A stretch of DNA of 64,000 nucleotides from Ehretia macrophylla (taxonomy: Eukaryota; Streptophyta; Magnoliopsida; Boraginales; Ehretiaceae). A program made the position numbers and the translations under genes. The stretch lies in the NCBI GenBank assembly GCA_037974665.1, contig CM075768.1, positions 7,961,501 through 8,025,500 of the forward strand, in the 5' to 3' direction. The number at the start of each line of letters is the position of its first letter. The stretch's first letter is position 1. The notes under the pieces are model-generated. The model did no database searches, had not been told where the DNA came from, and saw nothing but the letters and a program-made list of their open reading frames with translations. This document shows, piece by piece, positions 1,746 to 45,102 of the stretch.

Positions 1746-3290
1746 ATATGTTATGTAGTTAAGGTAATGTAGAGAATATTAGAGATTATAAGTGGTCTTA
1801 AAGTTAACCTCAAAGAATGTGTGTTGGTTAAATTACAATCAAATCTAACTTATCCTTAATTATGAATTCTATTTGAATTGCTAGTTATGGTGCAATTGGA
1901 GAAGGTTTGAAAGGGGTTATGGGCTTCTTAAAGGTGAGTGACTTGCATTATATTTGCATTTCTAGTTATGGCTATGCTTGTGTAACGTATTGGTTAGTTG
2001 ATGTATGGTGTTCCCACTTATATGAATTGTCAATGCTAATGTATATGTTATTTATTATGCAATTGTCTTTGTGTATTATTTTGAATTTAAATAATGTTGC
2101 ATATGTGATCGCTTGTGTTATAAATTGTTGCCTATTGATTGTAATTCATGTGCGGGGGCAACCTACTTTGTTGTCCCTCATTTATGTATTTATTGGCTTT
2201 TATTGTTATATTGCTTTATCATTGTTTTTTGTGGTTTCGTTTCTATGGTTGCACAACCTCATCATCGCGGTAGAAGTGATGGCCTCGTTGGGCGGCATTG
2301 GGCTTGCCAGTGTTGGTAGCCTTAACTCCATCTGCTATTCCCTGATTCACCTGGTCCGGAGATCGCCAGGGTATGTTGGGTCGTAGGTTTGATTACATCT
2401 AGAGTACCCATTGGTGTAAAGGGATGCCGACATAATGAATTCGAGTTCGTGGTTCGTGAGTTCATGGTTCGTGATTCAAAGGGTTAGAGTGATAAGGGTT
2501 ATCGCAATGTATCCTTTTAAAGTGTGTGGTATTTCATAGTTTAATTGTTTCTCTACTGTATAATTGCTATCTTCTGTGACTAACTGTTGCATTGCACGAA
2601 ATGATTTCAGAAACCTCCTCGGTTAACAGTTCCCTCCCTCACTGAGTATACATGTATTGTATGTTCACCCCTCCTTTCTAATATTTTACAGGTAAAGAAG
2701 TAACTGGATCTCTAGAGGGAGTTCGGAGGCTTCATTGCATGCTTGTAGTTGTGGATAATTGTTTTATGTATTGATGATGTAAATATGTTATCTTTTGAGA
2801 CCTATGGGTCTTATGTATATTTGAGTTGTTTTGGATGAATGTAAATTGAAGTTAAAAGTATTGTATAATGTTAGTAGTTAGTTGGGTTGTAATAACTTTA
2901 TGCTTTGCTTTAATGTTTAGTATTGCATGCTTGTGTGGCTGGTGGAAGTTAGTTGATTGTTTGACTAAATTTATAAGAAAGAAAGATAAATATGATTAAA
3001 GTGGTAAGATAAGCGGATTTAAAACATAGAATTTCAATGGAATTGATTTTGCATGCTTGTATGTTATATTGTCATGGTCTAAGGCTCGGATGGCCTTAAT
3101 GTTGGGAAAGTTGCGTGGTTGAAGTTTGGAGTTGTCGAGAATGTTATGGTATGTGGTTTGTGGTTTCATCTTTTGTTTACAGGTAACCAATTAGGCCTAA
3201 AAACAGGGAAAACGCCGCCTGTTTTTCTCATTTTTCGTGCCTAGGGTATTGTATCCGAGCTTCAATCTCGTGAGGGATCGGGGTGTTACA
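1746..3290 (+). repeat. 3' part of a long Ty3/gypsy LTR
   Basis: This stretch ends GGATCGGGGTGTTACA, the same ending as the long LTRs at 26718 and 31918, and carries in the same order the inner marks CCTACTTTGTTGTC (2162), GGCATTGGGCTTGCC (2294), AGAGTACCC and CTCACTGAG (2638). Its start was cut off by the copia element whose LTR ends at 1745, so at least 1.5 kb is missing to the left of the window. It abuts gypsy integrase sequence at 3291 and so was itself inserted into that element. Long translations in it are LTR sequence, not genes. Fossil. Confidence 0.75.
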
Positions 3291-9814: not shown

Positions 9815-11400
9815 CTAAAGCCAATCAGAATGGTATCTCATACCCATCCTTTCCAGGTGTCGATCTAAAGACTGCTTAGTCAGAGCCTTGGTCAACGAAT
9901 CAGCAGTGTTATTTGCTAATGCTACTTTTTGCATTACTATGTCGTCTTTTCCTACAATTTCTCGGATAATATGGTAGCGCATCTCTACATGTTTGGATTT
10001 CTGGTGAGACCTTGGTTCCTTAGCTTGCGCTATTGCTTCATTATTATCACAATGCAAAAGGCATTGCGACCTCAATGGAAGGAATCACTTCAAGTTCCGA
10101 GACGAACTTCTTGATCCTAATTGCCTCTTTTGTTGCATCTGATGCTGTGATGTATTCGGATTCTATAGTGGAATATGCAGTCGTACTCTGTTTGGAACTC
10201 TTCCAACTAACTGCTCCTCCATTACAAACGAAAATGAACCCTGAGGTGGATTTACGATCATCCACATCTGACTGAAGATCCGAGTGAGTAAAACCCTAAA
10301 TTTTCAATTCCCCTCCTACATATACCAAGACTATGTCTTTAGTCTTATTTAGGTATTTTAGGATGTTCTTGATAGCTATCTAGTGTTCCTCACCTGGATC
10401 TGACTGATATCTACTTGTAACACTTACACATGTACAATATCAGGCCTAGTACATAGCATGGCATACATAAGGCTTCTAATAGCCGAAGCATATGGAATCT
10501 TATTCATCCTCTCTCTTTCCTCTGTTGTTTTAGGACTCATAGCCCTAGAGAGATGAATGTCATGTCTAAAAGGTAATAGCCCCCATTTAGAATCCTGCAT
10601 GTTAAACCTCTTTAACACCTTATCTATGTACGTACTCTGAGAGAGACCTCTTAATCCTTTCGATCTACCCCTATAGATCAAAATTCCTAGGATGTAGGTT
10701 GTTTCTCCCAAGTCCTTCACAGAGAATGTTCCTGATAACCAGACCTTAACAAATAACATCATGCCTTTGTCATTCCCAATAAGTAGTATGTCATCTACAT
10801 ACAAGTTAAGGAACGTAACTACTTTATTGCTAACTTTCTTGTAAACACAAGGCTCGTCTTCATTCTTAATGAAGCCAAACTTTTTAACAGCCTCATCAAA
10901 ACGCTTGTTCCAGCTCCTTGAGGCTTGCTTGAGTTCATAAATGGATCTCTTCAGCTTACACACTTTGTGACCTTTACCTATGGATTCACAACCCTTTGGC
11001 TGTTCATAGATGTCTTCTTCAATGAAGCCATTAAGAAAAGCCATTTTGACATCCATTTTTCATATCTCATAATCGTAGTGTGCAGCTATAGCCAATAAAG
11101 TCCTAATGGATTTAAGCATCGCTACTGGCAAGAAGGTTTCTTGATAGTCAAGTCTTTGTCTCTGACGGTAACCTTTTGCCACTAATCTCGCTTTGAAGGT
11201 CTCTACCTTTCCATCTGCACCCCTCTTTCTTTTATATACCCATTTGTATCCTATAGGTACAATACTTTCAGGTGGTCTACAAGATTCCAGACTTGATTGA
11301 TGTGCATTGAATCCATTTCAGATTTTATGGCTTTAAGCCATTTATCTGAGTCCTGATCAGAAATAGCCTCCTCATAGTTTAGGGGATCATCAATATGATC
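9815..11400 (-). pseudogene. Copia reverse transcriptase and RNase H
   Basis: Reverse transcriptase (RVT_2 type) runs from about 11400 to 10390. Visible blocks are the WLKAIKSEMDSM start, the MDVKMAFLNG block, LKRSIYELKQASRSW and the catalytic LYVDDILLIG (aspartates of the YVDD box present). Copia RNase H follows at about 10270-9815, with the STTAYSTIESEYITASDATK segment, the CDNNEAIAQAK block and KHVEMRYHIIRE. Together they copied the element RNA into DNA inside a virus-like particle. The region is broken; the catalytic box itself is well kept. Confidence 0.92.
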
Positions 11401-12079
11401 ACCATCGTCCAATGTGAACAACTCTTGTCCTTGACTATGCAGGTAGCTATATCTTGTGGGGGGACAAATAGTCCTTAAAGATTTGCGTATCTGTGGTGAA
11501 GCAATAGGTTCCTCTTGAATAGTTTCATCCTGGATCAAATCCTGGGTTTCTACCTGGTCAATTGGTTGCTCAATGTTTCCCTTATTGAGCTCTACTTTTC
11601 TTCCCAAACCACTTTCTTGGATGAACTCTTCCTTCAAGAATATGGCGTGTCTACTGACAAAGACTCCCTTATCAATAGGGGAATAAAAGTTGTATCCCAA
11701 TGAATCCTTGGGATAACCAATGAATCTGACCTTGTCAGACCACGCTTCTAATTTATCAGTTTTAAGCCTTTTAATATAAGCAGGACAACCCCATACTCTA
11801 ATATGATTAAAGCTGGGTTTCTTATTTCTCCATATCTTATAAGGAGTGGTTACAACTGATTTAGAAGTGACCCTATTCAAGATGTATACTGCAGTGAGAA
11901 GAGCATGGCCCCATAGGACAACAGGTAAATCGGTATAAGTTATCATTGACCTGACCATGTCCAACAAAGTCCTATTTTTCCTTCCTGATACACCATTAAG
12001 CTCAGGTGTTCCAGGTAGGGTCAATGAAATGACTATACCATTTTCTTTGAGATACTCTTGGAATTCAGCACTAAGGTAT
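11401..12079 (-). pseudogene. Copia integrase, C-terminal half
   Basis: Continues the integrase whose N-terminal half is at 34244-34700; the solo LTR block entered between them. Seen here: the AEFQEYLKENGI segment, the LPGTPELNGVSGRKNRTL block with the third acidic region of the catalytic core, LPVVLWGHALLTAVYILNR, and the GKD-like LGYNFYSP zone. The final stretch before 11430 is the low-complexity linker to the reverse transcriptase. Fossil. Confidence 0.9.
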
Positions 12080-12828
12080 TGTAAAGCCCCGCACGGAATC
12101 CAATGTGCATTTATATCATTTACTGTGCATATAAACCATTTAACATGCATGTCATATCATCTAATATATGTTTATAACAATTTACGTACATTTATATCAT
12201 TTAATACGCATTCATATCGCTTCACGTGTTTTTACCTTGATCTACATGCATTAGTATCGTTTCACGTGCATTTAGGTGTTTTACATATCGTAAACAATAA
12301 ATAAATTTTATTGAATTAGGATAGCTAACTAATTTGGTTGGAAATGGACCAAATGGCAAACTAAAAGATAGGCATTTAGTTAAAGGGCATAATGGTCTTT
12401 TGGCAAACTAAAATATCCTCTACCTAACTCTTCTAAACAAAACACCACACACACACATACACCTATTCATACCACACAACACACACCTCACACACAACCA
12501 CACCACTTGGCCAAAGAGAAAAGGGAGAAGAGAAGAAGAAGAAGAAGAAAGGTGAGGGAAGAAGGAAAGAAGAAGGAGGGAAATGAGGAGGATAAAGCCA
12601 TTTTCACCATTTTCAAGTTTTATCTTTGCATCTTCAACTATATCTCTTGTATCCAAACACAAAATTGAGGAGAGGATTGTTTTCATAAATGATTTACAAA
12701 GTCTGACAAAGTCATACAAAGTATGATTTATGGATATATGTGTACATTAAACTTGATCTAGTGCAACTATAAACCTATTTCATGCATTTGAGCTTAGTTG
12801 AAGTAGCTTGAGCTTCTAGTAGATGTTT
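12080..12828 (+). repeat. Left part of the solo gypsy LTR
   Basis: Starts with TGTAAAGCCCCGCACGG, then repeated short ATTTATATCGTTT-like words and a CA-rich to GAA-rich tract. It stops at the TGTTT target (12824-12828) of the nested long-LTR element and resumes at 31924. Confidence 0.85.
12436..12562. repeat. CA-rich then GAA-rich tract in the LTR
   Basis: ACACCACACACACAC-type sequence passing into AGAGAAGAAGAAGAAG-type sequence. The same order, (CA)n then (GAA)n, occurs at 13129-13232 and 28066-28170 in the LTRs of another family. Confidence 0.85.
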
Positions 12829-13128
12829 TGTGACACCCCATCCCGAACATATAATTATTTTATTAATGTGCATATATATATGTTTGCATAAAATTGTATA
12901 TTTATTGATTTACATGCATTTTCCCTATTTAACTTGCATTTATGCTCAATTACGTGTGCTTGTATGTTTTACATTATCGTGGATAATAATTAAATTCTAC
13001 CTCATAACATTAGCGAAATAGAATAGTTAGAAGTCAACTAAATGGCAAACCACAAATAAACAATTAGTTGAAGGGGCAAACTTGTCAATGAGCTTAAACT
13101 AAATATCTTACCTACCATGAATTAAATA

Positions 13129-13232
13129 AAACATACACAATCACACAAAACACACACAAAAATCAGACACACACACACACACATACACACACAAGAAAGA
13201 AGAAGAAAAAGAAGAAGAAAGGAGAAGAAATA
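13129..13232. repeat. CA-rich then GAA-rich tract
   Basis: Simple-sequence tract of CACACA words followed by AAGAAGAAGAAA words near the start of the 5' LTR; its partner lies in the 3' LTR at 28066-28170. Confidence 0.85.
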
Positions 13233-16200
13233 AGCAACCCTGAGCCAATTTCTTCGTATTTTTGTGCATTAGCTCGCGTTTCTAGCACGTATAAGGTGAG
13301 GGGATGCTTTTAAAAATCTGATTGGAATTTATTTGCATGGTTATTAATTAATATGCTTGTTAGTAGTTGGTTGTTGCAAGATATGGCTTATTTTTGCGCT
13401 AATGTCATGTTTATATGAACTAATGTTGTATCTATGGATTGATTGTTCCTAAAGGCTAAGGATTGTTGTACTAGATGATTTAGGTGATCATTGTAAGTAG
13501 TAGAACAAGACCTAGGGTGAATCTTGGCTGGAACAAGTGAAAACATAGCAAAATAGTAGAAATACTTTCTTGGACAGATTACAGCACCAGTCTTTCGGAA
13601 CTGATTTTCCATAGTAAACGAACTCGTAATTCAATGAAATTTGGACAGTAGTTATATGAGTCAATTTGGAACAAGTTTTATTTCTGGTGCAAAAGGCTAA
13701 TTCGACCGTTTTAGGCCACCGATTGTGCCATCTTTAAAGCTTAGCAGAAAACGACGTCAATCTAAAGAGCTTTGTGCACTTGAGTTGTTTTAGTCATATC
13801 TTGATGAATTTAGCTTGGAATTAGGTGCTTTATGATTCTAGATTTATCTACTTTTGAAGAGCTTTCCAAACATGTAAAAATCAGTTTCATAGGAGGTCAT
13901 TTTCTTATGTAATTGTGCAGTCAAAGTTGAGCTAGTGCTGAGATATTGAAATTGTTAAACTTATTTGTTTTGTGCTCTTATTGCTTCTTGAGGTTAAATA
14001 ATATACTATATATGCTTATCTATTCTTATTTTACTTTTAAATATGTGTATAGAACATGTCTATGTCATTGGATAAGTTGGTTCATTACAAGATTGCTCCA
14101 TCTTAAATTTCAAGTTAGGGTTTCATATGGAAATTGAGAATTTTTGGATAACCTCGCATTAATGCTTGATTGAATGTTAATTAGACTCAATTTAGGAGTA
14201 AATAAACCTAGAATAAAGCTTTGAATGGGATAAAAATGCTTGAATTGTAAGATCATTTAGTTAAAGTTAGTTAACGGGCACTATTCACGCAGACCCAAGA
14301 AATAATGCTCCAAACCTAAATCTAATGCTAGATATATGAAGTTGGGTGGATATAATGGCCCCACGTTAAGATTTATCAAATTCCAAAAACATTGATTTTC
14401 ATGACCCCTCATATGCGCACCTTAGAATTAATGCAATTAGAGTCATTAGAACTAATTTAATGCTTCAAATAGGTACCATAAATGGGTTAAAGAATGGCTA
14501 GATGCTTTAGTTAACTAAACCTTGGCTAAAACTAGTTCCGCCTTATTGAATTCAAAGGGGAAAATATTGAAGTTAGGATTTTATAGCTAGTATTTAACTT
14601 GTAGTTGATTATTAAAGTGTTTAATTGCATTGGTGTAGCTTGTATAATCTATTGGTGAAGTTCATGAATTGAATGACTTGACAATTTTGTTGGAACATGA
14701 CTATATCTTGTGTACGTTTCTATATAATTTGTTGAAACTTCTAATGTGTTAATAAGTTGAGCTACGTGTATGATGAACATTTAGTTTATATGTTAAGTGT
14801 TATTTTGATTAGTTATAGTTAGCTAATTAATTGTTAGTCAAGAGATTATTTTGCCACCCTTGTATGAGTTATATGTTAACTAAGTAGATAATATATATGA
14901 TAGCATGTTATATATCAATCTTAATATTTTCAAATCTAACTTGGAAGTAATATAATATGATTTAGTTGAAATTGGAAGTTAAGCGTAAATAAGACTATAT
15001 ATTACATGATAAAGTACTTTAATGTTAGTTGAATCTACTTATACAATTAGCATTTGGATTATATTTTAAGTATAGTTTGGTTAATTATAATTAGCTTAAC
15101 TTTATATCTTAGTAAATGCTTCTATGTGGTTACAAAGCTGTGTGATGTTACTAAAGAACCTGAAGTATTCTTGAGTTAAGTGAAGTTATGAAATGATTGC
15201 AAATAGAAGATTAGATAATGTTGTGTAGTGTATGAACTATGAAATGTATATGAGTGTATTCCATTAGTTGTCTTGATTGTTTGGTCCTTTTGATTGAAAA
15301 GAAGGTTTAATAACTAACTAGTTAAAGTTAACTTTATGTTATTAACTGCTAAGTATTCTACGCTACTAAAATGTATTTGGAAGAATATGCATGAAAATTA
15401 TTTGTAGGTCATGGTTATAGTTTAATTATGTTTACGTATTAAAGGTGGTCGTTTTGATTGAATACTCAACTTAATATTCCCTTGTGATATAAATGAAGTT
15501 GAATTAGTTATGAAGTTTAACTTGTTAAAGTAACATGTAGTTAATGTTCTTTGTAAGATTACATAAATGATTTTGAGTTATTTGTATGATTACTTGGGTT
15601 TTGTGGCGATATGATATACATAAGTAATTATATAAGTAACTTCTATTGAGTTAAGTTATAGTTAATATGAAATTGATATAGCTAATTGTTAAAGTGCTAA
15701 ACTTATATGAAAACACTAGGGCTACATATTTGAGCTAATTCAAGAAAGTTTGAAGTGAATTGGAGCTATTTTCTTGCATGCTTGGCTTAATTGCAGGTGA
15801 GGAAATCTTCATCTCTTTTGTGCATCTTATCTTATTTTATTGCTTCTAGATTGTATGTGCTTGTAGATGATTTATTATGTGTTTAAATACATGTCTAAGG
15901 TATAATCAAGCTAATTGAAGAGTTTGTGGAAATATATGTTCTTTGTCTATTTTATGTGTATATCGTTATTTCGTGATTAAAGACTTATATTGTATTTAGC
16001 TGTGAGGGCGGCCTACTTTGTCATCCTTCTTATGTGCTACTTGGAAATCTTGGCTCTCGTGAACTTGATTCGGGGTTGCGCAACCTATTCGGTCATGGTA
16101 GTATCGAGTAACACGGGTGGCATCGGGCTTGCCGTGCTCCCTCGGCCATCATGGTTTCCCAGTCTCTATCTCGCTAAGGCATACTCCCCTACCCCAGAGG

Positions 16201-16594
16201 CGTGGTTCACCTCGTTGGGGCATATAGACCTATCTCGGGAGATATGAGTCGTAGGATCGGGGTACATCTGGAGTACCCCATTTGGAGGAATAAGGGGTTT
16301 GTCGGCACTTGCTTGAAGATCTTGGCTCGTGGTTCATGATTGAAGACAAAAGTAGAATCGTATCCTTTTTATACGTGGTAAAATATTTGTCTAATTAGCT
16401 TTGTTATTTTGTGTTATATATGTTATTATCTTTATTGCATCTCAAGAAAGCATTCATCGGTATGCTGCATCACCTCCCTCACTGAGTAACTTTGGTTACT
16501 CATTCCTCGTTTTAACATGTTTCAGGTGCAATTAGAACAACTATCTTGTGTATCGTGTTGTTGGTTGCTTATCTTGCTGAGGTTGGAAGCTGTT

Positions 16595-18948
16595 TGTAAC
16601 GCCCCAACTCGACTCCACCTACGATTAGTCAGGACGCAACGGAATTTTGGTAGTATAACGACAGTAATACGGACATCAGGGCTCTAGTCCAACCCTTTAG
16701 AACATCATACAACCAACTCCACAAATCATTGACCAACTCCACAATCTAGTTAACAACATACAACGCAACCATATTATACATTAAACATTCTTTCAACAGT
16801 TCATTCATAGTTATACGTCTTCGTTCCAACATCATACATTGGCTATAACATAGACTTGCAAAATAGATTATACATCGGTCTAGCAATCTAGTCATATTCA
16901 AAATAAAGACTACTAAACTAGCATAGTACAAGTCTTATATTTCAGTAAGTTATATAATACAACATATTACAAAAACTAGGACAAACTCATGGCAACGAGT
17001 CCGGCACATAAGACTTGTCCACGTAAAGCACATTCTCATCTTCTTAAGGCACATACCTGTAATCCAGTTCAGTAACACCTGCTTGTAGATAATGAATGAG
17101 AGTGAGCTTATATAAAACAAGCTCAGTGAGGAATTCTACAGATCTTTCACAAAACATCAACTTTTCAATTTAAACACATAAATAACCATTCATTGAGAAA
17201 TTATACTCTAGTTGGTGTAGCTCCATACGCCATCACGATCTCAACCATCTTCTTATAACTCCACATTACTCACACACCCGAGGTACCTCAACTAGCCCCT
17301 CCCTCCATGGCATCTCTGCCCATGCGAGCTGGGGGTAGTCTATGATAGTCATGCCGTTTTCAACCCGACAGCCTGATGCTGCCTGAGAGGTGGCACACAC
17401 TTATCAAGACTCATGACAATAATAATAAACACTCATATCACAGGAGGACAACAAAAGTAGGTTGCCCATCTCCCGGCTTCATCAATATCAATCAATTAAC
17501 ATCATTTCAACAACTTAACATCAATTAATCAAGTAAACAACTAACAACTAAGTTAGATGACAAAGTAGACCACCCAACATAACATGCATTAAACCATACA
17601 ACCAATCCCGAATCTAACCATCAACAACCCGAGATTCAATCACTCAAACACCACCCAAACTACTAAAGACAATATTTCAACTTTTATAGAAAAACTACTC
17701 GAACTTCTAAAAGTCATAACTTACAATCTACTAATCCAATAACCACTAAACCAGTTTCTACTACTCACCTACTCAAGCATCTACATTAGCCCCCTTGAAA
17801 ACCAACCATAATCCATCCAAAACAAGCCCAACAACCCAAATTTTGGCAATACTCTTGGCTGAATTTTTTGGGTTTTTGCTACATCATTCCAATCAAAAAT
17901 TCGGCATTACAACATTACTACCACGTAATTAACGAACTTTTAGAAGCCATAAACAACCAATTCCAACCACCACAACAACAATTATTCAACATTAAGCCAA
18001 ATACTCAACTTTAATACCCAAAAATAGAAATATATGCTACTACCGTTCAAAACTTATATAAACGCACATAAACAATCCTTGGCATCTACTGAACAACAAT
18101 CTAACAACAATTTAACATTTCATCGGAGAAATAAACAGTTATATGAATTTGACAAAAATTAGCATTTTAAGATCTAGAATTTTTCTCTCACCTTTGATGT
18201 TATATGAAGCTAGAAAGATGTGCAATGGATGCCCAACAAGTAGAATCAAGCCTTGGATGAAGAAGTTTAGACTTCAAATGAGTTTTCTAGAGAAAATTTG
18301 CTTTGAAAATATGTTAAAAAAACTCTCAAAGATGGCTATGGAGTTTTAGCCCCTTGTGTGTGTTTGTGAGTGTGTTTGCTTTGTTTTAAATGTGTGTTGA
18401 TGCATAAATAGGCTAAGTCAACAAAAATAGAAAGTCAAAGTTAGTTTATTTAGTCTTTTAATTAGTATTTTTAGTATTTCTTTGTCTTTTAATTCTATTT
18501 CTTGACTATTTTGCTCACAACATGAAATTAACACTTAGCCTATTTTTAGATAGTTTATTTTTGGTTGACAACCAGTTTTACATGCAAACATTTACACCCG
18601 ACTTGGTTAAAAACTCGATTTTCGCAAAAGAAAGTGTAAAAACCTTTAAAATTTCTAATCCGATTTGGAATCCGTTTAAATCAAACATGGGTCTACTAAT
18701 ATCTGAGGACTAGGTTTTAAGACACTTAAAACACCCGCGTAAAAATTTTAGCGGACGTGCGTTCAAAATACCATTCACAAAAACCGACGATAAAATTTTC
18801 AATGCCATTTTTGGTAAAAAATTTCATGAATGCACACTTAGCATGTAATAGGAATATAAATCACAGAATTAGCGCATTCTAACTCATATAACACATAAAC
18901 AGGTCAAAACACGCAATTCAATGTAAAGGTAAAATCTGGGGTTTCACA
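16595..18948 (-). repeat. 3' LTR of the left Tekay element
   Basis: Minus strand begins TGTGAAACCCC and ends GGGGCGTTACA. It matches the 5' LTR over the full 2354 bases. It contains the shared marks on the minus strand: CCTACTTTTGTTGTCCTCC (17440 region), CTCACTGAG (17122-17130) and a TATATAAG word directly after it. Confidence 0.93.
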
Positions 18949-18962
18949 TTCTCTCCTCCTTA
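18949..18962 (-). other. Polypurine tract of the left Tekay element
   Basis: Minus-strand AAGGAGGAGAGAA ends exactly at the LTR start. Confidence 0.85.
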
Positions 18963-20460
18963 AAGAAATTTCATCCTCGAAATTCTTACTTGCTATAGAG
19001 AACAAATCTGGATACTGCTGCTGCATCTGATCTCTCCTCTCCCAAGTAGCTTCCTCAATCCCATGATACTTCTATAACACTTTGACCATCAAAATCTTCT
19101 TCGACCTCAACTCTCGTTCTATCTGATCCAGAATACGAATCGCCCGCTCATCATAAGTCAGATCTCACGAAGCTGTAATGACTCTGGCCCTAAAATATGA
19201 GAAGGATTCGGATTATACTTTCGCAAATTAGACACGTGGAAAACATCGTGAACATTAGAGAAATTCTATGGTAAAGCCAACTGATATGCTAACTTGACAA
19301 CCCTGCCGATAATCTCAAACGGCCCTGCAAACCTCGGACTTAGCTTACCACCTTTACCATAGCGAGCAAACCCCTTACGAGGAGACAATCTCAAGAAAAC
19401 TAGGTCCCCGACCGCAAACTCCAAATCCCGACGACGCTTGTCAGCATAACTCGTGTATCTGCACTGCGCTGTCAGCATTCTCTGCCTAATCAACTGAACA
19501 TTCTCAATCTTTTCTAGAAGCTTTGGCATAATAGGTGGATCAATAACCTTCATCTCCCCTACTTCATCCCAATACAAAGGTGATCAACACTTACGGCTGT
19601 AGAGAGCTGCAAAAGGTGTCATCCCAATAGTCACTTGATAACTATTGTTATAGGCAAACTCGGCAAGTGGTAGATGTTTCTCCCAGTTATTCCCGAAGTC
19701 TAGAACACAAGCCCTGAGCATATCCTCCAGAATCTGAATAGTTCTCTCAGACTGACCGTCGGTCTATGGATGATACGCTGTGCTGAAATTTAACTGAGTA
19801 CCCAAAGTCTCCTGAAGTTTTTCCCACAATCGAGAAGTAAACTGAGGATCTCGATCGGAGATAATGCTAGATGAAATCCTATGAAGTTTAACAATCTGAT
19901 CCATATAAAGATCTACCAATTTTATAACCTCATCTCCCAACCTCATCGGAATGAAATGAGCTGTCTTTATCAAACGGTCCACAACAACCCAAACTGCATC
20001 GTTATCTCTCGGTGTTCTAGGCAAACTAGAGACGAAGTCCATCGTAATATGTTCCTACTTTCATTCTGGTATTGCCAACGGCTTAAGTAACCCTGCGGGT
20101 CGTTGATGTTCTGCTTTCACCCGCTGACAAGTCAAACATCTGGATACAAACTGAGCAACCTCCATTTTCATATTATTCTACCAATAATGTTGTTTCAAAT
20201 CCTGCTACATCTTGTTTCCACCGGGATGAATGGTGTACTTAGAATTATAAGCCTCCTCCAAAATATCTCTCCTCAAACCCAGTTCATCGAGAACACGTAC
20301 CATGTTCCAAAACTGAAGAATACCATCCTCATGTACTTTGAAGTCAGACTGGCCATTCGTAATCTGATCCTTGATCTTCTGAAGTTTTACATCAAGTTGC
20401 TGAGCTTCTTTGATTTGAGACAGCAATAAAGGTTGAATACGGAGATGTGAACACATGACC
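18963..20460 (-). pseudogene. Tekay integrase with chromodomain
   Basis: Minus-strand order: zinc-binding H2C2 region (about 20460-20090; HPGGNKM block), catalytic core (about 20060-19600; [12 protein letters not shown], then [32 protein letters not shown]), the C-terminal domain (about 19580-19250; VGDLVFLRLSPRKGF and GPFEIIGR) and a chromodomain (about 19200-18965; YDERAIRILDQIERELR, VKVL, then EEATWERRDQMQQQYPDLF). The chromodomain directs chromovirus insertion to heterochromatin marks and places this element in Tekay. Broken fossil. Confidence 0.92.
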
Positions 20461-21790
20461 CTAACATGGGTCAATTCCGGTTTTCAATAACTGATTTCTT
20501 CAAGAACCTCGCACTTTTTAACAGCCAAACAAGCAATACTCGCCTTATGGTTGAGAGCATCTGCTACAACATTAGCCTTCCTAGGCAGATAATTGGTAGA
20601 ACAATTATAATCTCCCAGAAGTTCCATCCACCTCTGTTAACGCATATTCAACTCCTTCTGTGAGAACAAGTACTTCAGACTTTTATGATCGGTGAAAATC
20701 TCGAACTTACTACCCTACAGATAATGACACCTCTTTTTCAGTGCGAATACAACTGCTGCCAACTCAAGATCATGAGTCGGATAGTTCACCTCATACGGCT
20801 TCAACTTTCTAGAAGCATAGGCAATAACCCGACCATTCTACATAAGTACACAACCCAAGCCTTCCTTGGATGCATCGCTATAAATAACCTTATTATCGGT
20901 TCCCTCTGGTAGAGCAAGTACTGGAGCAATAGTCAACCTCTTTTTCAACTCTAGAAACCCACTCTTACATTTCTCATCCCAAGTAAAGCTGGTTCATTTC
21001 TAAGTTAACTTAGAAAGTGGCCCTACAATCTTAGAAAAGTTCTTCACAAACCTACGGTAATAACCTACTAAGCCAAGGAAGCTACGAACTTTCGAAACAT
21101 TCTCCGGTCGTTTCCAAGACATCACCACTTCAATCTTAGTAGGATCTACAGAAATACCGCTCTGTATAATCACATGGCCAATAAAAGATATTCGTTGCAG
21201 CTAGAATTCACATTTGCTAAACTTCGCAAACAACTAATGCTCATGCAGCTTTTGTAAGACAAGCCATAGATGTTTCTCGTGCTCTGATTCAGTCTTAGAA
21301 TAAACCAACATATCATCAATAAAGATTACCACGAACTGGTCCAAGTACGGCTGAAAGACCCGATGCATAAGATAAATGTTGTTGGTGCATTAGTCAGTCC
21401 GAAGGGCATAACTACAAATTCATAATGCCCGTACCGAGTCCTGAAAGCAGACTTTGGAACATCCTCCGTACGAATCCGAAGCTGATAATACCCCTGCCTC
21501 AAGTCAAATTTAGAGTAGACTTTGGCTCCCTGAAGTTGATCAAACAACTCATCAATTAGTGGTAAAGGATACTTGTTCTTGATGGTCACCTGATTCAAAC
21601 CACGATAATCAATACATAATCTCAAGATACCATCCTTCTTCTTCACAAATAAAATAGGTGCTCCCCACGGTGAAGAACTCTGCTGAATGAAACCCTTCTC
21701 TAATAACTCCTGTAACTGAGTTTTCAGCTCCTTCAGCTCAGCTGGTGCCATCCGGTACGCTGATTTAGAAATCGGTTGAGTACTGGAAAT
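20461..21790 (-). pseudogene. Tekay reverse transcriptase and RNase H
   Basis: Reverse transcriptase from about 21780 ([20 protein letters not shown]) through [43 protein letters not shown] and the catalytic [12 protein letters not shown] near 21310. RNase H follows at about 20990-20480, with [12 protein letters not shown] and YASRKLK. The domain order RT-RH-INT confirms gypsy. Broken fossil. Confidence 0.92.
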
Positions 21791-22430
21791 CAGATTAATC
21801 ACAAACTCAACATCTCTCTCTGGTGGCAATCCTAGCAACTCCTCAGGAAATACATTGGGATATTCCCGAATTATAGGAACTTCCTCTAGCTTTAGCTTAT
21901 CAGATGGCTTGTTGATCAAATAAGCTAGATAACCCGAGCACCCCTTACTCACCAACTTAATAGTTTTAGTTGATGAGATAATAAAACTCGTCTTGGTATC
22001 CTGGTTCCCCGCTACCTTAACCACTAGCTGTTCTGGCAATCGAAACCGTACTACCTTTGTTCTACAGCTTAATTGGGCATCATACTTAGAAAGCAAATCC
22101 ATACCCAAGATAATATCATACCCCCGGATAGGAAATAAGATAAGGTCCGAAGGAAAATCCTGACCTTTAACATGTATTATGCCATGTATTATGCAATGTT
22201 TACATACTAAACCAGTCACATATTTATCAGTCAAAGAAGTACTAATCTTAACCACATAAGGCAATCTTTCAAGTTATATGTTAACACGTTGTACACAAGT
22301 AGGTGTAATGAGAGAATGCGTATCACCAGAATCAATCAACACTTTAACAAGTTGATTGAGTATAAGGAAGTTACCTTCTACAACTGTCGCTGCCTCAGGT
22401 GCTTCCTCTAAATCCACTGCGTAGGCCCGA
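21791..22430 (-). pseudogene. Tekay aspartic protease region
   Basis: The LIDSG-type active-site word lies near 22340 on the minus strand and is followed by the THSLITP flap-like stretch, then [20 protein letters not shown], the usual second half of plant gypsy proteases. It would cut the gag-pol polyprotein. Part of the broken polyprotein. Confidence 0.85.
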
Positions 22431-23680
22431 GCTTGAACCCGCTGCTGCTGAGGTGCACCACCGGTAGGTCGATCCTGATAACCCTGGGTCGTTGGCTTAC
22501 CCTCAAGCCTCTGAAACCTAGGGCAATCCCTGACCCTTTATTGGTTGCTATCGCAACCTAAACATGTTCCTGCCTTTGCCCTACAGTTGGCCTCCAAATA
22601 GCCCTGACGTTTGCAGTAAGTACACTGCGGTGACGAAGCACTAACACTGTCCCTCGAAGACCCAGAAGTTGAAAATGTAGCTGTACCAGCCTACTGCTGG
22701 GGTCTTGCAACGCTAGGCCTATATTGACCCTGAGACTGGGCCAGCCTGTACTATGACTGAGCCTGGTAGGACCCTTGTTGAAACTGGGGCCTATAGAAAC
22801 CCTACTGACCCTGCGGTCTGAAAGAGCTCTGCTGTACTGGTGGCCTACACACAACCTACTGCACTGGAGGCCTAAACACACCTTGCTGACCCTACGACTG
22901 AAACGGTATCTTACTAGGCTGACTAGGACCAATTTGCTCCCCTTTTCTCTTCTCCAACCGAGAAGCCGCATCAAAGGCCTCAGAAAATATATCATACTGA
23001 TTCAGGGCCATTGCATCCTGAATCTCTGGCCTCAATCCCAACATAAACCTCCGAGTCTTACGCTCCTCATCTGCTACAAATTATGGTGTAAATCGGGACA
23101 GTTTGGTAAAATTGGCCTCGTACTGGGCCACTGTAGAATCACCCTGAACCAGAGATAGGAACTCTGCCTCTCTTCGTTCCCGTGCAATCCTCGAAATGTA
23201 TTTAGCCCGGAACGCCCTAAGAAAGGTATCCCAAACATAAGGAGTACCTCGTGCCTCCCAACCGGCTTTCACTGTATGCCACCACTCTTCGGCCTCATCA
23301 TTAAACAAATAAACTGCAAAGGTAACTTTCCTTTCGTCAGTGTAATCCAAAGGATCAAATATCTTCTCAATTTTATTAATCCAACCCTCTGCCTTTCTAT
23401 TATCTGGCTTGCCCTGGAATCTCAGTGGAAAGTAACCCAGAAATTCCTTCAATGTATTTCGCCCGTGATAACCACCCTGTGTGTTCATCATATGTGCCTG
23501 CACAGCCTGTGTCTGGGCAGCCTACCCTGCTAATATCTGTGCCTGACCCGCTATGATTTCCGTCATTCTATCCATAGCTGCAGCAATACGGTCACCACCT
23601 TGATCTCAGCCCGGTGCCATATTACCCGGTGCCTCGATATCTGCCTCTGGCCTACCTCTTGTTCTCGGTCGACCAGCCAT
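22431..23680 (-). pseudogene. Tekay gag
   Basis: Starts at a methionine (23680) with MAGRPRTRGRPEADIEA, the typical Tekay gag start, then a capsid-like core including EEWWHTVKAGWEARG and FRAKYISRIARERREAEFLS, and a Q/G-rich tail with a CCHC-like knuckle region near 22600-22550. It forms the particle shell. Broken fossil. Confidence 0.9.
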
Positions 23681-23933
23681 TCTACTAACAAAAAGTTAGC
23701 ACAGGTTATAGCACATAGACATGCTATAGACAATTATTAGCACATAAGCAACAAACTCACGTAAATCACGTAAGTCACTTAAACAAATTGATCACATATT
23801 CATTTAGTCACTTAATCACATAATCACTTAGTCATATTATCACATATTTCACTTTTCTTTCACCTCATACATACTTTCATGCTAAGTCCATTACCCATAT
23901 TCTGAGAATACCCCGGCTGACAACTAAACATAA

Positions 23934-23945
23934 GCTCTGATACCA
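23934..23945 (-). other. Primer-binding site, initiator tRNA-Met
   Basis: Minus-strand TGGTATCAGAGC lies five bases after the 5' LTR end, an exact match to the usual plant initiator tRNA-Met primer site. Confidence 0.92.
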
Positions 23946-23950
23946 CTTAA

Positions 23951-26304
23951 TGTAACGCCCCAACTCGACCCCACCTACGATCAGTCAGACGTAAATGAAT
24001 TTTGGCAGTATAACAACAGTAACACGGACATCAGAGCTCTAGTACAACCCTTTAGAATATCATACAACCAACTCCACAAATCATTGACCAACTTCACAAT
24101 CAAGTGAACAGCATACAACGCAACCATATTAAACATTAAACATTCTTTCAATAGTTCATTCATTGTTATACGCCTCCGTTCCAACATCATACATTGGCTA
24201 TAACATACACTTGCAAAATAGATTAAACACCGGCCTAGAAACCCAGTCATATTCAAAATAAAGACTACTAAACTAGCATAGTACAAGTCTTATATTTCAG
24301 TAAGTTATATAATACAACATATTACAAAAACTAGGACAAACTCATGGCAACGACTCCGGCACATAAGACTCGTCCACATAAAGCACATTCTCATCTTCTT
24401 GAGGCACATACCCGTAATATGGTTCAGTAACACCTGCTTGCAGATAATGAATGAGAGTGAGCTTATATAAAACAAGCCTAGTGAGGAAATCTACAGATCT
24501 TTCACAAAACATCAACTTTTCAATTTAAACACATAAATAACCATTCATTGAGAAAGGATACTCTAGTTGGTATAGCTCCATACGCCATCACGATCTCAAC
24601 CATCTTCTTATAACTCCCCATTACTCACACACCCAAGGTACCTCAACTAGCCCCTCCCTCCATGGCACCTCTGCCCATGCGAGCTGGGGGTAATCTATGA
24701 TAGTCATGTCATTTTCAACCCGACAGTCCGATGTTGCCCGAGAGGTGGCACACACTTATCAAGACTCATGACAATAATAATAAACATTCATATCATAGGA
24801 GGACAACAAAAGTAGGTTGCCTATCTCCCGGCTTCATCAATAATCAATCAATTAACATAATTTCAACAACTTAACATCAATTAATCAAGTAAACAACTAG
24901 CAACTAAGTTAGATGACAAAGTAGGCCACCCAATATAACATGCATTAAACCATACAACCAATCCCGATTCTAACCATCAACAACCCAAGATTCAATCACT
25001 CAAACACCACCCAAACAACCAAAGACAATATTTCAAATTTTAAAGAAAAACTACTCAAACTTCTAAAAGTTATAACTTACAATCTACTAATCCAATAACC
25101 ACCAAACCAGTTTTTACTACTTTCCAACTCAAGCATCTACATTAGTCCCCTTGGAAACCAACCATAATCTATCCAGAACAAGCCTAACAACCCTAATTTT
25201 GGAAATACTCTTGGCTGAATTTTCCGGGTTTTTGCTACATCATTCCAATCAAAAATTCGACATTACAACATTACTACCACATAATTAACAAACTTTTAGA
25301 AGCCATAAACAACCAATTCCAACCACCACAACAACAATTATTCAACATTAAGCCAAATACTCAACTTTAATACCCGAAAAATAGAAATACATGCTACTAC
25401 CATTCAAAACTTATATAAACGCATATAAACGATCCTTGGCATCTACGAAGCAACAATCTAACAACAATTTAACATTTCATCGGGGAAATAAACAGTTATA
25501 TGAATTTGACAAAAATTAGCATTTTAAGATCTAGAATTTTTCTCTCACCTTTGATGTTATATGAAGCTAGAAAGATGTGCAATGAATTCCCAACAAGTGT
25601 AATCAAGCCTTGGATGAAGAATTTTGGACTTCAAATGAGTTTTCTAGAGAAAATTTGCTTTGAAAATATGTTAAAAAAACTCTCAAAGATGGCTATGGAG
25701 TTTTGGCCCCTTGTGTGTGTTTGTGAGTGTGTTTGCTTTGTTTTAAATGTGTGTTGATGCATAAATAGGCTAAGTCAACAAAAATAGAAAGTCAAAGTTA
25801 GTTTATTTAGTCTTTTAATTAGTATTTTTAGTATTTCTTTGTCTTTTAATTCTATTTCTTGACTATTTTGCTCACAACATAAAATTAACACTTAGACTAT
25901 TTTTAGGTAGTTTATTTTTAGTTGACAAGGAGTTTTACATGCAAACATTTACACCCGACTTTGTTAAAAATTCGATTTTCGCAAAAGAAAGTGTAAAAAT
26001 TTTTAAAATTCCTAATCCAATTTGGAATCCGTTTAAATCAGACACGGGTCTACTAATATCTGAGGACTAGGTTTTAAGACACTTAAAACACCCGTGTAAA
26101 AATTTTAGCAGACGTGCGTTCAAAATACTATTCACAAAAATCGACGAAAAAAATTTCAATGCCGTTTTTTATGCAAATTTCATGAATGCACACTTAGTAT
26201 GTAATAGGAATATAAATCACAGAATTAGAACATTCTAACTTATATAACATATAAACAGGTTAAAACACGCAATTCAATGCAAAAGTAAAATTTGGGGTTT
26301 CACA
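23951..26304 (-). repeat. 5' LTR of the left Tekay element
   Basis: 2354 bases, same termini and inner marks as the 3' LTR at 16595-18948. Open frames within it (for example 25500-25757 and 23981-24286) recur in the partner LTR and are LTR sequence, not genes. Confidence 0.93.
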
Positions 26305-26722
26305 CTATTTGTGAATATGGGACTTGATGTGTTTATATTCTGTTTTGAGACCCTTGAGGTCTTATAGATATTTTTGGTATGCCTTGTTGGATTGTAAACT
26401 AAATTAAAGACTTATGTAATTTGATAGAGTAGTGGCATGTAATAGCTACAGTTAGACTTTATTGTCTTTTGATTACATGCTCGTGTGGTTATGTTTTTTT
26501 GTCTAAGGCTCAGATGGCCTTGAGACAGGGAAAAGTGGGACGGTTGGAGTTGGGGTGTTTTATTGTGGTTATACTTATTGCTTGCAGGTTTTTGATTAGT
26601 CCTATAAACAGGGAAGACTCCGTCCGTTTTCCTTAAATTTTGTGCCCGGGTTTGCATATGGGTTGAGAATAGCATGATTAATAGGAGTTATGGTTCCGTG
26701 AAGGATCGGGGTGTTACAAAAG

Positions 26723-26734
26723 TGGTATCAAAGC
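26723..26734 (+). other. Primer-binding site of the long-LTR element
   Basis: TGGTATCAAAGC, one base off the initiator tRNA-Met complement, starts five bases after the 5' LTR end at 26718. It sets the element on the plus strand. Confidence 0.88.
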
Positions 26735-27344
26735 TTAAATAGCTCTCAGTCGGGATAGGGTCCTCAGTCTGTTGGGTAGCAACCCTCGAGTGCGTGCATA
26801 TGGAGTGTATCTTGAATAGTTGAGTGCTTGTATGTGAGACTTGTGTGTACTTGAATGAGAATGTGTACTTATGTGTCATACTTGTGTAAAATGTGAAAGA
26901 TGTGTAATATGTGCAATTTTGTGGCCATGAGTGCACTTAATTGATTCTATGAGTCATTGATTGTCTTAGATATTGTTACTAAGGTGTGTGTTAGGCTTTA
27001 TGAGCTAAATTGTCATTTAAACTAGTGTATCTTGTTAATTAAACTACGTGTTATTGAACTCTAACATGTTGATAGTTGCATAATATGTGAAAAGTATATG
27101 ATATGTGTAATTATGTGACTATGTACATCTAAGTAAATAATAGTTGCATACTAGTTTAAAGTGATAATTGTATCTATGTAATAGTTGCTTGGTATATCCT
27201 ATGTGGTTACAACTGCATATATGCATTCCTCGTTGAAATGGTAAATAAACTCTTCCCCATGTAAAAAGATGGCTAGTGGCAGACCTTCCAATGATGGAGA
27301 CCAGTGGGAAGAGAAGCATTTGATCAGACATCTATTGAAGAGTT

Positions 27345-27640
27345 AGTGTTCATATTTGGAACTCGACTATTGGGATTCTTATTGGGTATTCTCTCAGAAT
27401 TCTTATTTGGTATTATCTGTGGTATTCATACTCGGATCTTTTATTCGTATTTTCTCGGCATTCTAACCCGAACTCTTATATGGATATCTTATTCGGGAAT
27501 TATGAGTTAGTGTTTTCAATCGGAGCCTTTATTTGGCATCCTTATTTCGGGATTTTCAATTGGTATTTTCTTGGTATTCTTACGGGAGATCCTTATTGGT
27601 ATTCTTGAGCGGTACTCCTACATGTTAATTGGTAATGGAT
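27345..27640 (+). repeat. Degenerate short-word repeat
   Basis: Many irregular copies of a word close to TTCTTATTTGGTATTCT, spaced about 16-20 bases, as in ATTCTTATTGGGTATTCTC, ATTCTTATTTGGTATTATC and ATCCTTATTGGTATTCTTG. It fills most of the second half of the interior where gag-pol would lie. Confidence 0.75.
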
Positions 27641-27748
27641 AACCAGAGTTGACATTTGGTATTTCCATTTGGATACCTGAATCGGAGATGTTGCAGCTTG
27701 ATGAAAAATTGATTTATGAAACAAAAGTTGCGAGGACGCAATTGTTTT

Positions 27749-27761
27749 AAGGGGGGGAGAG
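27749..27761 (+). other. Polypurine tract of the long-LTR element
   Basis: AAGGGGGGGAGAG ends right at the 3' LTR. Confidence 0.88.
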
Positions 27762-30700
27762 TATGACACCCCGTCCCGAATATATAATTATTATATTAAT
27801 GTGCATATATATATGTCTGCATAAAATTGTATATTTATTGATTTACATGCATTTGCCCTATTTAACTTGCATTTATGCTCAATTACGTGTGCTTGTATGT
27901 TTTACAACATTGTGGATAATAATTAAATTCTACCTCATAACATTAGCGAAATAAAATAGTTAGAAGTCAACTAAATGGCAAACCAGAAATAAACAATTAG
28001 TTGAAAGGGCAAACTAGTCAATGAGCTTAAACTAAATATCTTACCTACCATGAATTAAATAAAACATACACAAGCACACAAAACACACACAAAAATCAGA
28101 CACATACACACACACACACACTAGAAAGAATAAGAAAAAGAAGAAAAAATGAGAAGAAATAAGTAACCCCGAGCCAATTTCTTCACATGTTTGTGTATTA
28201 GCTCGCGTTTCTAGCACGTATAAGGTGAGGGGATGCTATTAAAAATCTGATTTGAAGTTATTTGCATGGTTATTAATTAATATGCTTGTTAGTAGTTGGT
28301 TGTTGCAAGATATGGCTTATTTTCTGCTAATGTCATGTTTATATGAACTAATGTTGTATCTATCAATTGATTGTTCTTAAAGGCTAAGGATTGTTGTAGT
28401 AGTTGATTTAGGTGATCATTGTAAGTAGTAGAACAAGACCTAGGATGAATCTAGGCTGGAACTAGTGAAAACATAGCAAAATAGTAGAAATGCTTTCTTG
28501 GACAGATTACAACACCTGTCTTTCGGAACTAATTTTCTATAGTAAACGAACTCATAATTCAATGAAATTTCAAAAGTAGCTAGATGAGTCAATTTGGAAC
28601 AAGTTTTATTTCTGGTAAAAAAGGCTAATTCGACCATTTTAGGCCACCGATCTTGCCATCTTTAAAGCTTAGCAGAAAACGACGTCAATCTGAATAGCTT
28701 TGCGCACTTGAGTTGTTTTAGTCATATCTTGATGAACTTAGCTCGGAGTTAGGTGCTGTTTGATTCTAGAATTATCTACATTCGAAGATCATTCCATACA
28801 TGAAAAAATCAGTTTCATATGAGTCATTTGGTTAGGTAATTGTGCAGCCAAATTTGAGCTACTGCTGAGATGTTGAAATTGTTAAACTTATTTGTTTTGT
28901 GCCCTTATTGCTTCTTGAGGTTAAATAATGTACTATATATGCTTATCTATGCTTATTTTACTCTTAAATATGTGTATAGAACATGTCTATGTGATTGGAT
29001 AATTTGGTATATTACTAGATTGCTCCCTCTTAAATTTCAAGTTAGGGTTTCATATGGAAATTGGGGATTTTTGGGTAACCTCACATTAATGCTTGATTGA
29101 ATGTTAATTAGACTCAATTTAGGAGTAAATAAACCTAGAATAAAGCTTTGAATGTGATAAAAATGCCTGAATTGTAAAATATTTAGTTAAAGTTAGTTAA
29201 CGGCACTATTCACGCAGACCCAAGAAATAATGCTCCAAACCTAAATCTAATGCTAGATATATGTTGTTGGGTGGATAAAACGACCCTACATTAAAATTTA
29301 TTGAATTCCAAAAACATTGATTTTCATGACCCCTCGTATGCGCACCTTAGAATTAATGCAATTAGAGTCTTTAGAACTAGTTTAATGCTTCGAATAGGTA
29401 CCATAAATGGGTTAGAGAATGGCTAGATGCTTTAGTTAACTAAACATTGGCTAAAACTAGTTCCAGCTTATTGAATTCAAAGGGAAAAATATTGAAGTTA
29501 GGGTTTTATAGCTAGTATTTAACTTGTAGTTGATTATTAAAGTGTTTAATTGCATTGGTATAGCTTGTATAATCTATTGGTGAAGTTCATGAATTGAATG
29601 ACTTAACTATTTTGTTAAAACATGACTATATCTTGTGTACGTTGCCATATAATTTGTTGAAACTTCTTATGTGTTAATAAGTTGAGTTACATGTATGATG
29701 AACATTTAGTTTATATGTTAAGTGTAATTTTGATTAGTTATAGTTAGCTAATTGGATTGTTAGTCAAGAGATTATTTTTCCACCCTTGTATGAGTTATAT
29801 GTTAACTAAGTAAATAATGTATATGATAACAAGTTATATACCAATCTAACATTTTCAAATCTAACTTGGAAATAATATGATTTAGTTGAAATTGGAAGTT
29901 AATCATAAATAAGACCATATATTACATGATACAGTACTTTAATGTTAGTTGAATCTACTTATACAATTAGCATTTGGATTATATTTTAAGTATAGTTTGG
30001 TTAATTATAATTAGCTTAACTTTATATCTTAGTAAATGCTTCTATGCGGTTACAAGGTTGTGTGATGTTACTAAAGAACCTGAAGTATTCTTGAGTCAAG
30101 TGAAGTTATGAAATGATTGCAAATAGAAGATTAGATAATATTGTGTAGTGTATGAGCTATGAAATGTATATGAGTATATTCCATTAAGTATCTTGATTGT
30201 TTGGTCCTTTTGATTGAAAAGAAGGTTTAATAAATAACTAGTTAAAGTTAACTTTATGTTATTAACTGCTAAGTGTTCTACGCTACTAAAATGTATTTGG
30301 ATGAACATGCATGAAAATGATTCTTAGGTCATAGTTATAGTTGAATTATGTTTAAGTATTAAAGGTGGTCGTTTTGATTGAATACTCAACTTAATATTCC
30401 ATTGTGATATAAATAAAGTTGAATTAGTTATGATGTTTAACTTGTTAAAGGTTAATGTAGTTAATGTTCTTTGCAAGATTAAAGAAATGATTTTGAGTTA
30501 TTTGTATGATTACTTGGGCTATGTGGCGATATGATATACATAAGTGATTATATAAGTAACTTCTATTGAGTTAAGTTATAGTTAAGTTAGAATTGATATA
30601 GCTAATTGCTAAAGTGCTAAACTTATATGAAAACACTAGGGCTACATATTCGAGCTAATTCGAGAAAGTTTGAAGTGAATCAGAGCTATTTTCTTGCATG

Positions 30701-45054: not shown

Positions 45055-45102
<48 letters not shown>

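Follow-up and report, generated by a model that had tools for sequence, protein, structure and literature searches.

The LTRs of several gypsy-type families in Ehretia macrophylla carry a common module, and the short conserved marks that define it are parts of RNA hairpins. Three of these (hairpins 1, 2 and 4) show compensatory changes in their stems and are well supported. The conserved order is hairpins 1 to 3, the motif RTATCCTT, hairpin 4 and, at a nearly fixed distance, an acceptor-like sequence. From these letters we infer that the module consists of a structured RNA domain and a candidate U12-like intron.

The window, i.e. the whole analysed stretch of 64,000 nt, contains eleven LTRs with the module. 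The original prediction had described five ordered marks in the LTR piece at 1746-3290 (M1), and all five were found there exactly, at 2162, 2294, 2401, 2638 and 2684. The same order, said to recur with small changes in other LTRs, was recovered in the two 4.2-kb LTRs B1 and B2 with mark 1 at 16012 and 30932 (2 mismatches each), mark 2 at 16119 (1 mismatch) and 31039 (2 mismatches), mark 3 at 16270 and 31190 (1 mismatch each) and mark 4 as CTCACTGAG, exact, at 16478 and 31398. In the solo LTR S1 marks 1 to 4 lie at 32941 (1 mismatch), 33081 (1), 33132 (0) and 33624 (0). Mark 5 is present in these three LTRs in changed form only, as GTTTCAGG and GTTTCAGA in the 4.2-kb LTRs and as ATTACAAG in S1. 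On the minus strand of the 3.56-kb solo LTR D1 marks were found at 40058 (0 mismatches), 39950 (1) and 39612 (1), and mark 3 is recognisable with one base inserted. For the Tekay LTRs the claim holds by alignment and by a covariance model of hairpin 2; marks 2, 3 and 5 are greatly altered there, and the 15-mer given for mark 2 has no match in them at up to 3 mismatches. The model matched all 11 window LTRs (E 1.3e-16 to 0.0084; window LTRs, the M1 copy included, supply two of the 26 training rows) and one further place in the window (E 0.39). The copies are arranged as follows.

2155-2177, plus strand: M1 LTR, hairpin 1 (mark 1), loop CUACUUU at 2163-2169
2268-2331, plus strand: M1 LTR, hairpin 2 (mark 2), covariance model match (copy in the training set)
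2391-2409, plus strand: M1 LTR, hairpin 3 (mark 3), loop AUCUAGA, stem imperfect here
2509-2516, plus strand: M1 LTR, GTATCCTT, candidate U12-type 5' splice site
2638-2670, plus strand: M1 LTR, hairpin 4 (mark 4) plus CTCACT and ACCC flanks
2671-2692, plus strand: M1 LTR, pyrimidine-rich stretch, CTAAT, ACAG/G (mark 5), candidate branch and 3' splice site
2509-2691, plus strand: M1 LTR, candidate intron
16006-16525, plus strand: B1 (4.2-kb LTR) module; hairpin 2 16093-16156, hairpin 3 core 16263-16275, GTATCCTT 16360-16367, hairpin 4 16478-16505, acceptor AG 16524-16525
30926-31445, plus strand: B2 (4.2-kb LTR) module; hairpin 2 31013-31076, hairpin 3 core 31183-31195, GTATCCTT 31280-31287, hairpin 4 from 31398 (CTCACTGAG exact; 3' arm GTTATTC deviates from the search pattern)
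32935-33670, plus strand: S1 solo LTR module; hairpin 1 32935-32955, hairpin 2 33055-33119, GTATCCTT 33253-33260, hairpin 4 33624-33649, acceptor CAAG (changed from CAG) ending at 33670
39579-40077, minus strand: D1 3.56-kb solo LTR module; hairpin 1 40057-40077, hairpin 2 39926-39992, hairpin 3 core 39855-39867, GTATCCTT 39764-39771, hairpin 4 39595-39620, acceptor AG 39579-39580
17055-17463, minus strand: T1 Tekay LTR module; mark-1 remnant 17450-17463, hairpin 2 17338-17409, hairpin 4 17100-17130, RTATCCTT absent
24554-24818, minus strand: T2 Tekay LTR; mark-1 remnant 24805-24818, hairpin 2 24693-24764, GTATCCTT 24554-24561, hairpin 4 unmatched by the pattern
35506-35914, minus strand: T3 Tekay LTR; mark-1 remnant 35901-35914, hairpin 2 35797-35857, GTATCCTT 35654-35661, hairpin 4 35506-35537
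43593-44001, minus strand: T4 Tekay LTR; mark-1 remnant 43988-44001, hairpin 2 43884-43944, GTATCCTT 43741-43748, hairpin 4 43593-43624
49158-49579, minus strand: T5 Tekay LTR; hairpin 1 core 49566-49579, hairpin 2 49455-49525, GTATCCTT 49319-49326, hairpin 4 49158-49189
56317-56577, minus strand: T6 broken Tekay LTR; hairpin 1 core 56564-56577, hairpin 2 56453-56523, GTATCCTT 56317-56324, hairpin 4 not found

The T4 LTR also contains a perfect 42-nt self-complementary stretch at 45057-45098.

Across the genome (1.58 Gb, 20 contigs) the mark 4 pattern TCACTGAGN{6,18}CTCACYC occurs at 21,011 places, compared with 31 for the reversed control, and the mark 2 word GGGCGGCATYGGGCTTGCC at 13,457 places, compared with none for its control. 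These counts and those in the window rule out a chance origin of the marks; the observation as a whole is confirmed.

For the analysis of the hairpins about 0.8 kb was fetched around 40 diverse places and pooled with earlier loci and the window. The matches clustered into 40 groups, of which 38 were kept; two judged false on visual inspection were removed (L009 at 711, and L093, which lacks the stem and whose exclusion favours the hairpin). Each cluster was represented by one copy. Loops or tips served to locate the other marks and were found in 19 of the 38 for hairpin 1, 26 for hairpin 2 and 28 for hairpin 3. The hairpin 4 alignment has 36 rows, three of the 38 being absent (one as a duplicate string) and one extra copy of cluster B being included; for hairpin 3, 24 of the 28 picks were aligned and four without a recognisable loop left out. 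Each alignment was compared with 500 shuffles, which ignore kinship among the rows, and with slid versions.

Mark 1 corresponds to the CUACUUU loop of a hairpin whose stem varies (for example GGUGAC/GUCACC, GGCAAC/GUUGCC or GGUGGC/GUCAUC), and 76.7% of the cells are paired over 19 rows, compared with 61.1% in the shuffles. Mark 2 is the tip of a hairpin of about 62 nt with up to three stems, which vary for example between CAUGGUAG/CUACCAUG and CAUAGUAG/CUACUAUG; 78.8% of the cells are paired over 26 rows (shuffles 70.7%), and the long fold is not the minimum-energy structure in some families, M1 included. Mark 4 is the 5' arm of hairpin 4, CACU-GAGnnn..nnnCUC-AC. Among the first 100 places listed per search its stem keeps the complement as GAGTATAC/GTATACTC, GAGCTA/TAGCTC, GAGCTT/AAGCTC, GAGCAA/TTGCTC, GAGCAT/ATGCTC and GAGTTC/GGACTC, and the window has GAGTAAC/GTTACTC. 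Since the search patterns fixed GAG and CTCAYYC and left the inner letters free, the inner cells were counted separately: 326 of 390 pair over 130 distinct strings, compared with a mean of 216.8 and a maximum of 241 for shuffled arms. In the 36-row alignment, whose GAG/CTC pairs were set by the search, 95.8% of the cells are paired (shuffles 80.4%). For hairpins 1, 2 and 4 alike, the covariation score was attained by none of the 500 shuffles, the percentage paired and the double-change cells exceeded all of them, and the slid versions scored lower in percentage paired and covariation. The number of pairs with double changes was not clearly above the shuffles (146, 422 and 39 of 500, respectively).

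Mark 3 is probably a third hairpin, weaker than the others, with a loop near [AU]UCYRGA. A check for self-complementarity found this loop often as UCCGGA and at times as UCUAGA or altered, in a hairpin that is itself weak. Strong covariation is unsupported here: over 24 rows the covariation is not significant, and 78.5% of the cells are paired compared with 78.0% in the shuffles and 27-60% in the slid versions. A second count gave weak support (97 of 140 cells paired, shuffles 82.5, maximum 98).

The folding energy of the block of hairpins 1 to 3 is ordinary (z -1.80 to +1.05 in six LTRs), and the reverse strand scores lower in four of the six. Hairpin 2 has a mean z of -1.31 (13 of 26 below -2), its antisense -1.34 (9 of 26), and hairpin 4 a mean z of -2.85 (26 of 38 below -2). 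We considered whether the module might instead act in regulation at the DNA level, its inverted repeats binding dimeric factors or forming a promoter or CpG island as in published Del LTRs. Palindromes, GGTTGCAACC among them, would agree with this, as would the similar scores of hairpin 2 on both strands and a 3' CpG-island region conserved in some Del groups according to the available text of PMC4029996. Against it, the stem letters vary freely while the complement is kept, and the loop lengths differ. G-U pairs also outnumber A-C pairs (128 and 47 across the four alignments); relative to the shuffles only A-C is lower, at 7 compared with 14.5 in hairpin 1 and hardly so in hairpin 3 (10 compared with 11.4). 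We regard regulation at the DNA level as very unlikely, and the module is very probably structured at the RNA level.

Several other identities were considered and rejected. Rfam gave no match in the window at the gathering score and none at E up to 1 in 2120-2760; no known RNA family was recognised. A conserved small protein was rejected, since in none of the 24 families with the hairpin 2 tip is any frame open over 240 nt; open reading frames occur in the module region of single copies. A TATA-box reading of hairpin 4 (TATATAA in the Tekay copies) fails as a general one because most other loops among those listed lack TATA. The apparent relatives of hairpin 4 among the matches listed in viral and prokaryotic contigs are background: with the identical pattern 118 of 321 inner cells pair over 107 distinct viral strings, and only four of these strings have all three inner pairs. 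In the six viral matches to the hairpin 2 word, three of them identical in sequence, the stem is absent by eye.

The carriers of the module are Tekay/Del-like chromoviruses, a lineage name taken from their structure and from the label in the original prediction, together with relatives that are apparently non-autonomous. Gypsy-type pol was found in T and D elements only, in pieces (Pfam RVT_1, RVP_2, RNaseH and rve); D elements additionally contain SH3_Tf2-1, and their Chromo match (E 0.0017) scores 18.6 bits, short of the Pfam cut-off of 25.1. The type A U5 end of Del elements has GGG at -8 to -10 and A, C, A and G at -1, -2, -3 and -6 (PMC4029996, available text). It is present in M1 and B1 (GGGGTGTTACA), T1 and T2 (GGGGCGTTACA) and D1 (GGGGCGTGACA), and B2 (GGGGTATTACA) and T6 (GGGGCATAACA) deviate at -6. 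Each 5' LTR end that was inspected is followed by a primer site resembling TGGTATCAGAGC. The B element (12829-16594 and 26305-31918) has 4.2-kb LTRs and only about 1 kb of internal DNA; its primer site follows 26718, and its 5' LTR holds a nested Tekay element at 16595-26304. Copia-type pol fragments (RVT_2 and a retroviral SH3-like domain) lie on the minus strand at 10427-12156. D LTR segments repeat about every 8.38 kb at C3:22183251-22208450, C2:83925299-83942121 and C1:39534936-39551761, as in tandem LTR-internal-LTR arrays.

No pol was found in one 2.5-kb internal stretch each, from one copy each, of L009 (L110) and M1, and on this basis both families are apparently non-autonomous. That they keep hairpin 4 without pol would fit a signal needed in cis. 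L009 is the commonest hairpin 4 class among the matches listed, and its LTRs (e.g. C1:378588 and 383326) are often paired about 4-5 kb apart; it is probably a very numerous non-autonomous family.

As had been claimed, the sequence outside the marks is unlike between families. BLAST of whole LTRs aligns mainly the module: the pairs D-B, D-M, D-S and M-S are alignable there only, the B-M match runs from the module to the 3' end, and B-T and D-T have additional short weak matches outside it (E 3.7e-4 to 0.003). The original prediction had left two readings, a functional segment under selection or one exchanged between families. The first is supported in a more specific form, as the stems change on both sides and the pairing is kept. 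Recent exchange of the segment by recombination might be read from a sharp island within otherwise unalignable LTRs; identity between the islands of different families is no more than about 60-81%, the compensated stems are particular to each family, and a common origin is explained by the alike pol of D and T (67-75% amino-acid identity in five fragments, 41% in one 44-residue piece). Exchange is thus neither needed nor shown, and we consider it extremely unlikely as the explanation, though single cases are conceivable. Common descent with a constrained segment fits the likeness of pol, the family-own stems and the 3' part shared by B and M.

A word count over the 38 family representatives brought up GTATCCTT, which is absent from the five marks described originally and lies between hairpins 3 and 4. 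Within 640 nt upstream of hairpin 4, [AG]TATCCTT occurs in 22 of the 38 families and on the antisense strand in none; Markov shuffles gave 1.7 (maximum 5), and the most frequent of 104 other anagrams reached 7. Sixteen families begin the motif with G and six with A, and positions 9 to 11 are T in 16, 16 and 12 of the 22. The exact form is absent in the other 16 families, including the most abundant, L009. In the window it lies within the module in 10 of 11 LTRs and occurs 18 times in all, compared with 6.7 expected. Among 30 loci picked by the hairpin 2 word alone, about 23 of them from family D, RTATCCTT follows 177-221 nt downstream in 27 and hairpin 4 is present in 29 (at most one mismatch per arm). 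RTATCCTT lies 73-135 nt after hairpin 3 in 12 of 14 families; the outliers, L086 (326 nt) and L098 (48 nt), may be wrong picks. The interval from RTATCCTT to hairpin 4 ranges between 102 and 361 nt across 14 families, a variability expected of an intron body. Further words conserved across families lie about 415 nt (GGTTGCAACC), 290 nt (GGTCGTAGGAT) and 50 nt (GCATTGCACGA) before hairpin 4.

RTATCCTT is identical in sequence to the nearly invariant 5' splice site of U12-type introns, which the available texts give as ATATCCTT at +1 to +8 (PMC2831892) and exemplify by GTATCCTTTT (PMC7367187). The genome has two U11 snRNA genes above the family cut-off (C14:48308605-48308732 and C18:15726979-15727138), and both begin with AAAAAGGG, which is complementary to CCTTTTT.

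Mark 5 is the end of a pyrimidine-rich, acceptor-like stretch shortly after hairpin 4. Pyrimidines make up 76% of this stretch. Past position 8, 35 families have a [CT]A[AG]G, and in 34 of them the first such site ends 16-22 nt from hairpin 4. The acceptor-like [CT]T[TA]?[CT]A[AG]G is found in 33 of 38 families (shuffles 4.3, maximum 12); a plain YAG is not above chance (30 of 38, shuffles 26.3). A branch-like YTNAY together with the acceptor occurs in 26 families (shuffles 2.9, maximum 7), and in the strict form in 12 (shuffles 2.2, maximum 6). Only 9 of 22 families (1.5 expected) have their highest score at a TCCTTAAC-like, i.e. U12-like, branch; the branch is often CTTTCTAAC, and CTAAC, resembling U2-type sites, is frequent. 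The distance from branch to AG was 7-12 nt in the 16 families measured. The terminal pair GT-AG fits 16 of 22 families, and the six A-starting families end in AG, a combination placed in the class 'other' with 0-3.8% of plant U12 introns (PMC7367187, available text).

Intron-less LTR copies would be expected because spliced RNA, if copied, would leave them. None was found among the best 40 of 2,398 D candidates or the best 40 of 230 M1 candidates scored, each with one choice of splice points. An 18-base D junction word matched 510 places at up to 2 mismatches; the best among those listed had 1 mismatch, none was exact, and most of the 100 listed belong to one unrelated-looking repeat. These results favour an alternative in which the hairpins are real and the splice-like signals unused; the module would then be a structured domain for export, packaging or dimerisation, with RTATCCTT conserved as a binding site for a protein or an RNA. 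Two further points agree with it: the abundant L009, without RTATCCTT, keeps hairpin 4, the acceptor-like end and hairpin-2-like and hairpin-3-like sequence, and structured elements for export are present in mouse IAP and MusD (PMC12786077, available text). The purine-initial RTATCCTT and the acceptor-like end at its near-fixed place, both far above the shuffles, speak against it, and we regard unused signals as possible and rather unlikely. A candidate U12-like intron in the LTR is the reading towards which we lean slightly. The original prediction's proposal to map splice junctions was well chosen in this respect.

The position of the module relative to the transcription start also had to be weighed. 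If it lay in U3, upstream of the start, it would act only at the 3' end of the RNA, in processing or stability of the 3' UTR. In favour of this location, no TATA-like word recurs consistently before hairpin 1, and TATAAAT lies 422-427 nt after hairpin 4 in three of four D-type copies examined. A downstream TATA-like word common to families was not found, and RTATCCTT is unexplained by a U3 location alone, so that we consider it very unlikely.

A structured RNA module combined with a U12-like intron is, by a modest preference, the best overall explanation of these sequences. On this view transcripts of Tekay/Del-type LTRs would contain an RNA module acting in cis; selection on its structure and on the splice-like signals would preserve it while the remaining LTR drifts. 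Transcription would start upstream of hairpin 1, so that hairpins 1 to 3 would form a folded 5' leader, RTATCCTT...YAG would be a U12-like intron of about 165-420 nt in four window LTRs, and hairpin 4 would stand directly before the intron branch region. Minor-class introns are spliced slowly. Slow splicing may leave part of the RNA unspliced, to be copied, with the spliced part serving as message; this division of the transcript into message and genome is proposed tentatively. HIV-type packaging leaders have hairpins with conserved loops in non-coding RNA, and the folded leader might be what allows unspliced RNA to be exported, packaged or dimerised, export being as good a guess as packaging. 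A fuller and similarly doubtful version would have a minor-spliceosome intron in the LTR with a hairpin-gated branch region, its slow splicing yielding message and genome, a three-hairpin leader, perhaps with a kissing loop, marking unspliced RNA for export, dimerisation or packaging, and abundant non-autonomous relatives surviving by keeping parts of the system.

Comparison with known systems draws on the available parts of the cited texts. The Tekay/Del LTRs of PMC4029996 are alike in their long LTRs of variable length, the type A U5 end and a conserved stretch within a variable LTR, but conservation was described there within groups, whereas here hairpins are shared across families; the words intron, splic-, hairpin, palindrom- and secondary structure do not occur in its text. 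Plant Metaviridae LTR models could not be built in a 2013 study owing to length variation (PMC3601003). The LTRs of copia-type Sireviruses also have conserved motifs in otherwise divergent sequence, but these are repeated CGG-CCG boxes and a TATA box without covarying hairpins (PMC2829016). U12-type introns (PMC2831892, PMC7367187) share with the module the 5' site ATATCCTT/GTATCCTT and a branch-like sequence near the acceptor; unlike them, the module often has the branch CTTTCTAAC instead of TCCTTAAC, its A-starting cases end in AG, and the candidate intron sits in transposon LTRs. According to a 2025 review, which names Ogre and EVADE as exceptions and also mentions splicing in BARE1, plant LTR elements are generally without introns (PMC12786077). 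These three resemble our case as plant LTR retrotransposons with spliced and unspliced RNA, but their introns serve gag/pol expression, whereas the candidate here is U12-like and inside the LTR. The MusD MTE and IAP RTE treated in the same review are likewise conserved-loop hairpins in non-coding RNA of LTR elements; 'dimeri' and 'stem-loop' do not occur in its text. Unlike such export elements and structured retroviral leaders, the module has no sequence or Rfam relation to them, and its role is putative.

A U12-type intron in LTRs would be unexpected; judged by title or abstract start, it is the subject of none of the open-licence papers that our searches listed. A shared covarying module would give these LTRs a common internal landmark and a route to solo LTRs across families, and it would offer concrete sites at which to test the allocation of gypsy RNA to translation, export and packaging. 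The results suggest that unlike families keep common hairpins and intron-like signals, an unrecognised RNA control region in abundant mobile DNA.
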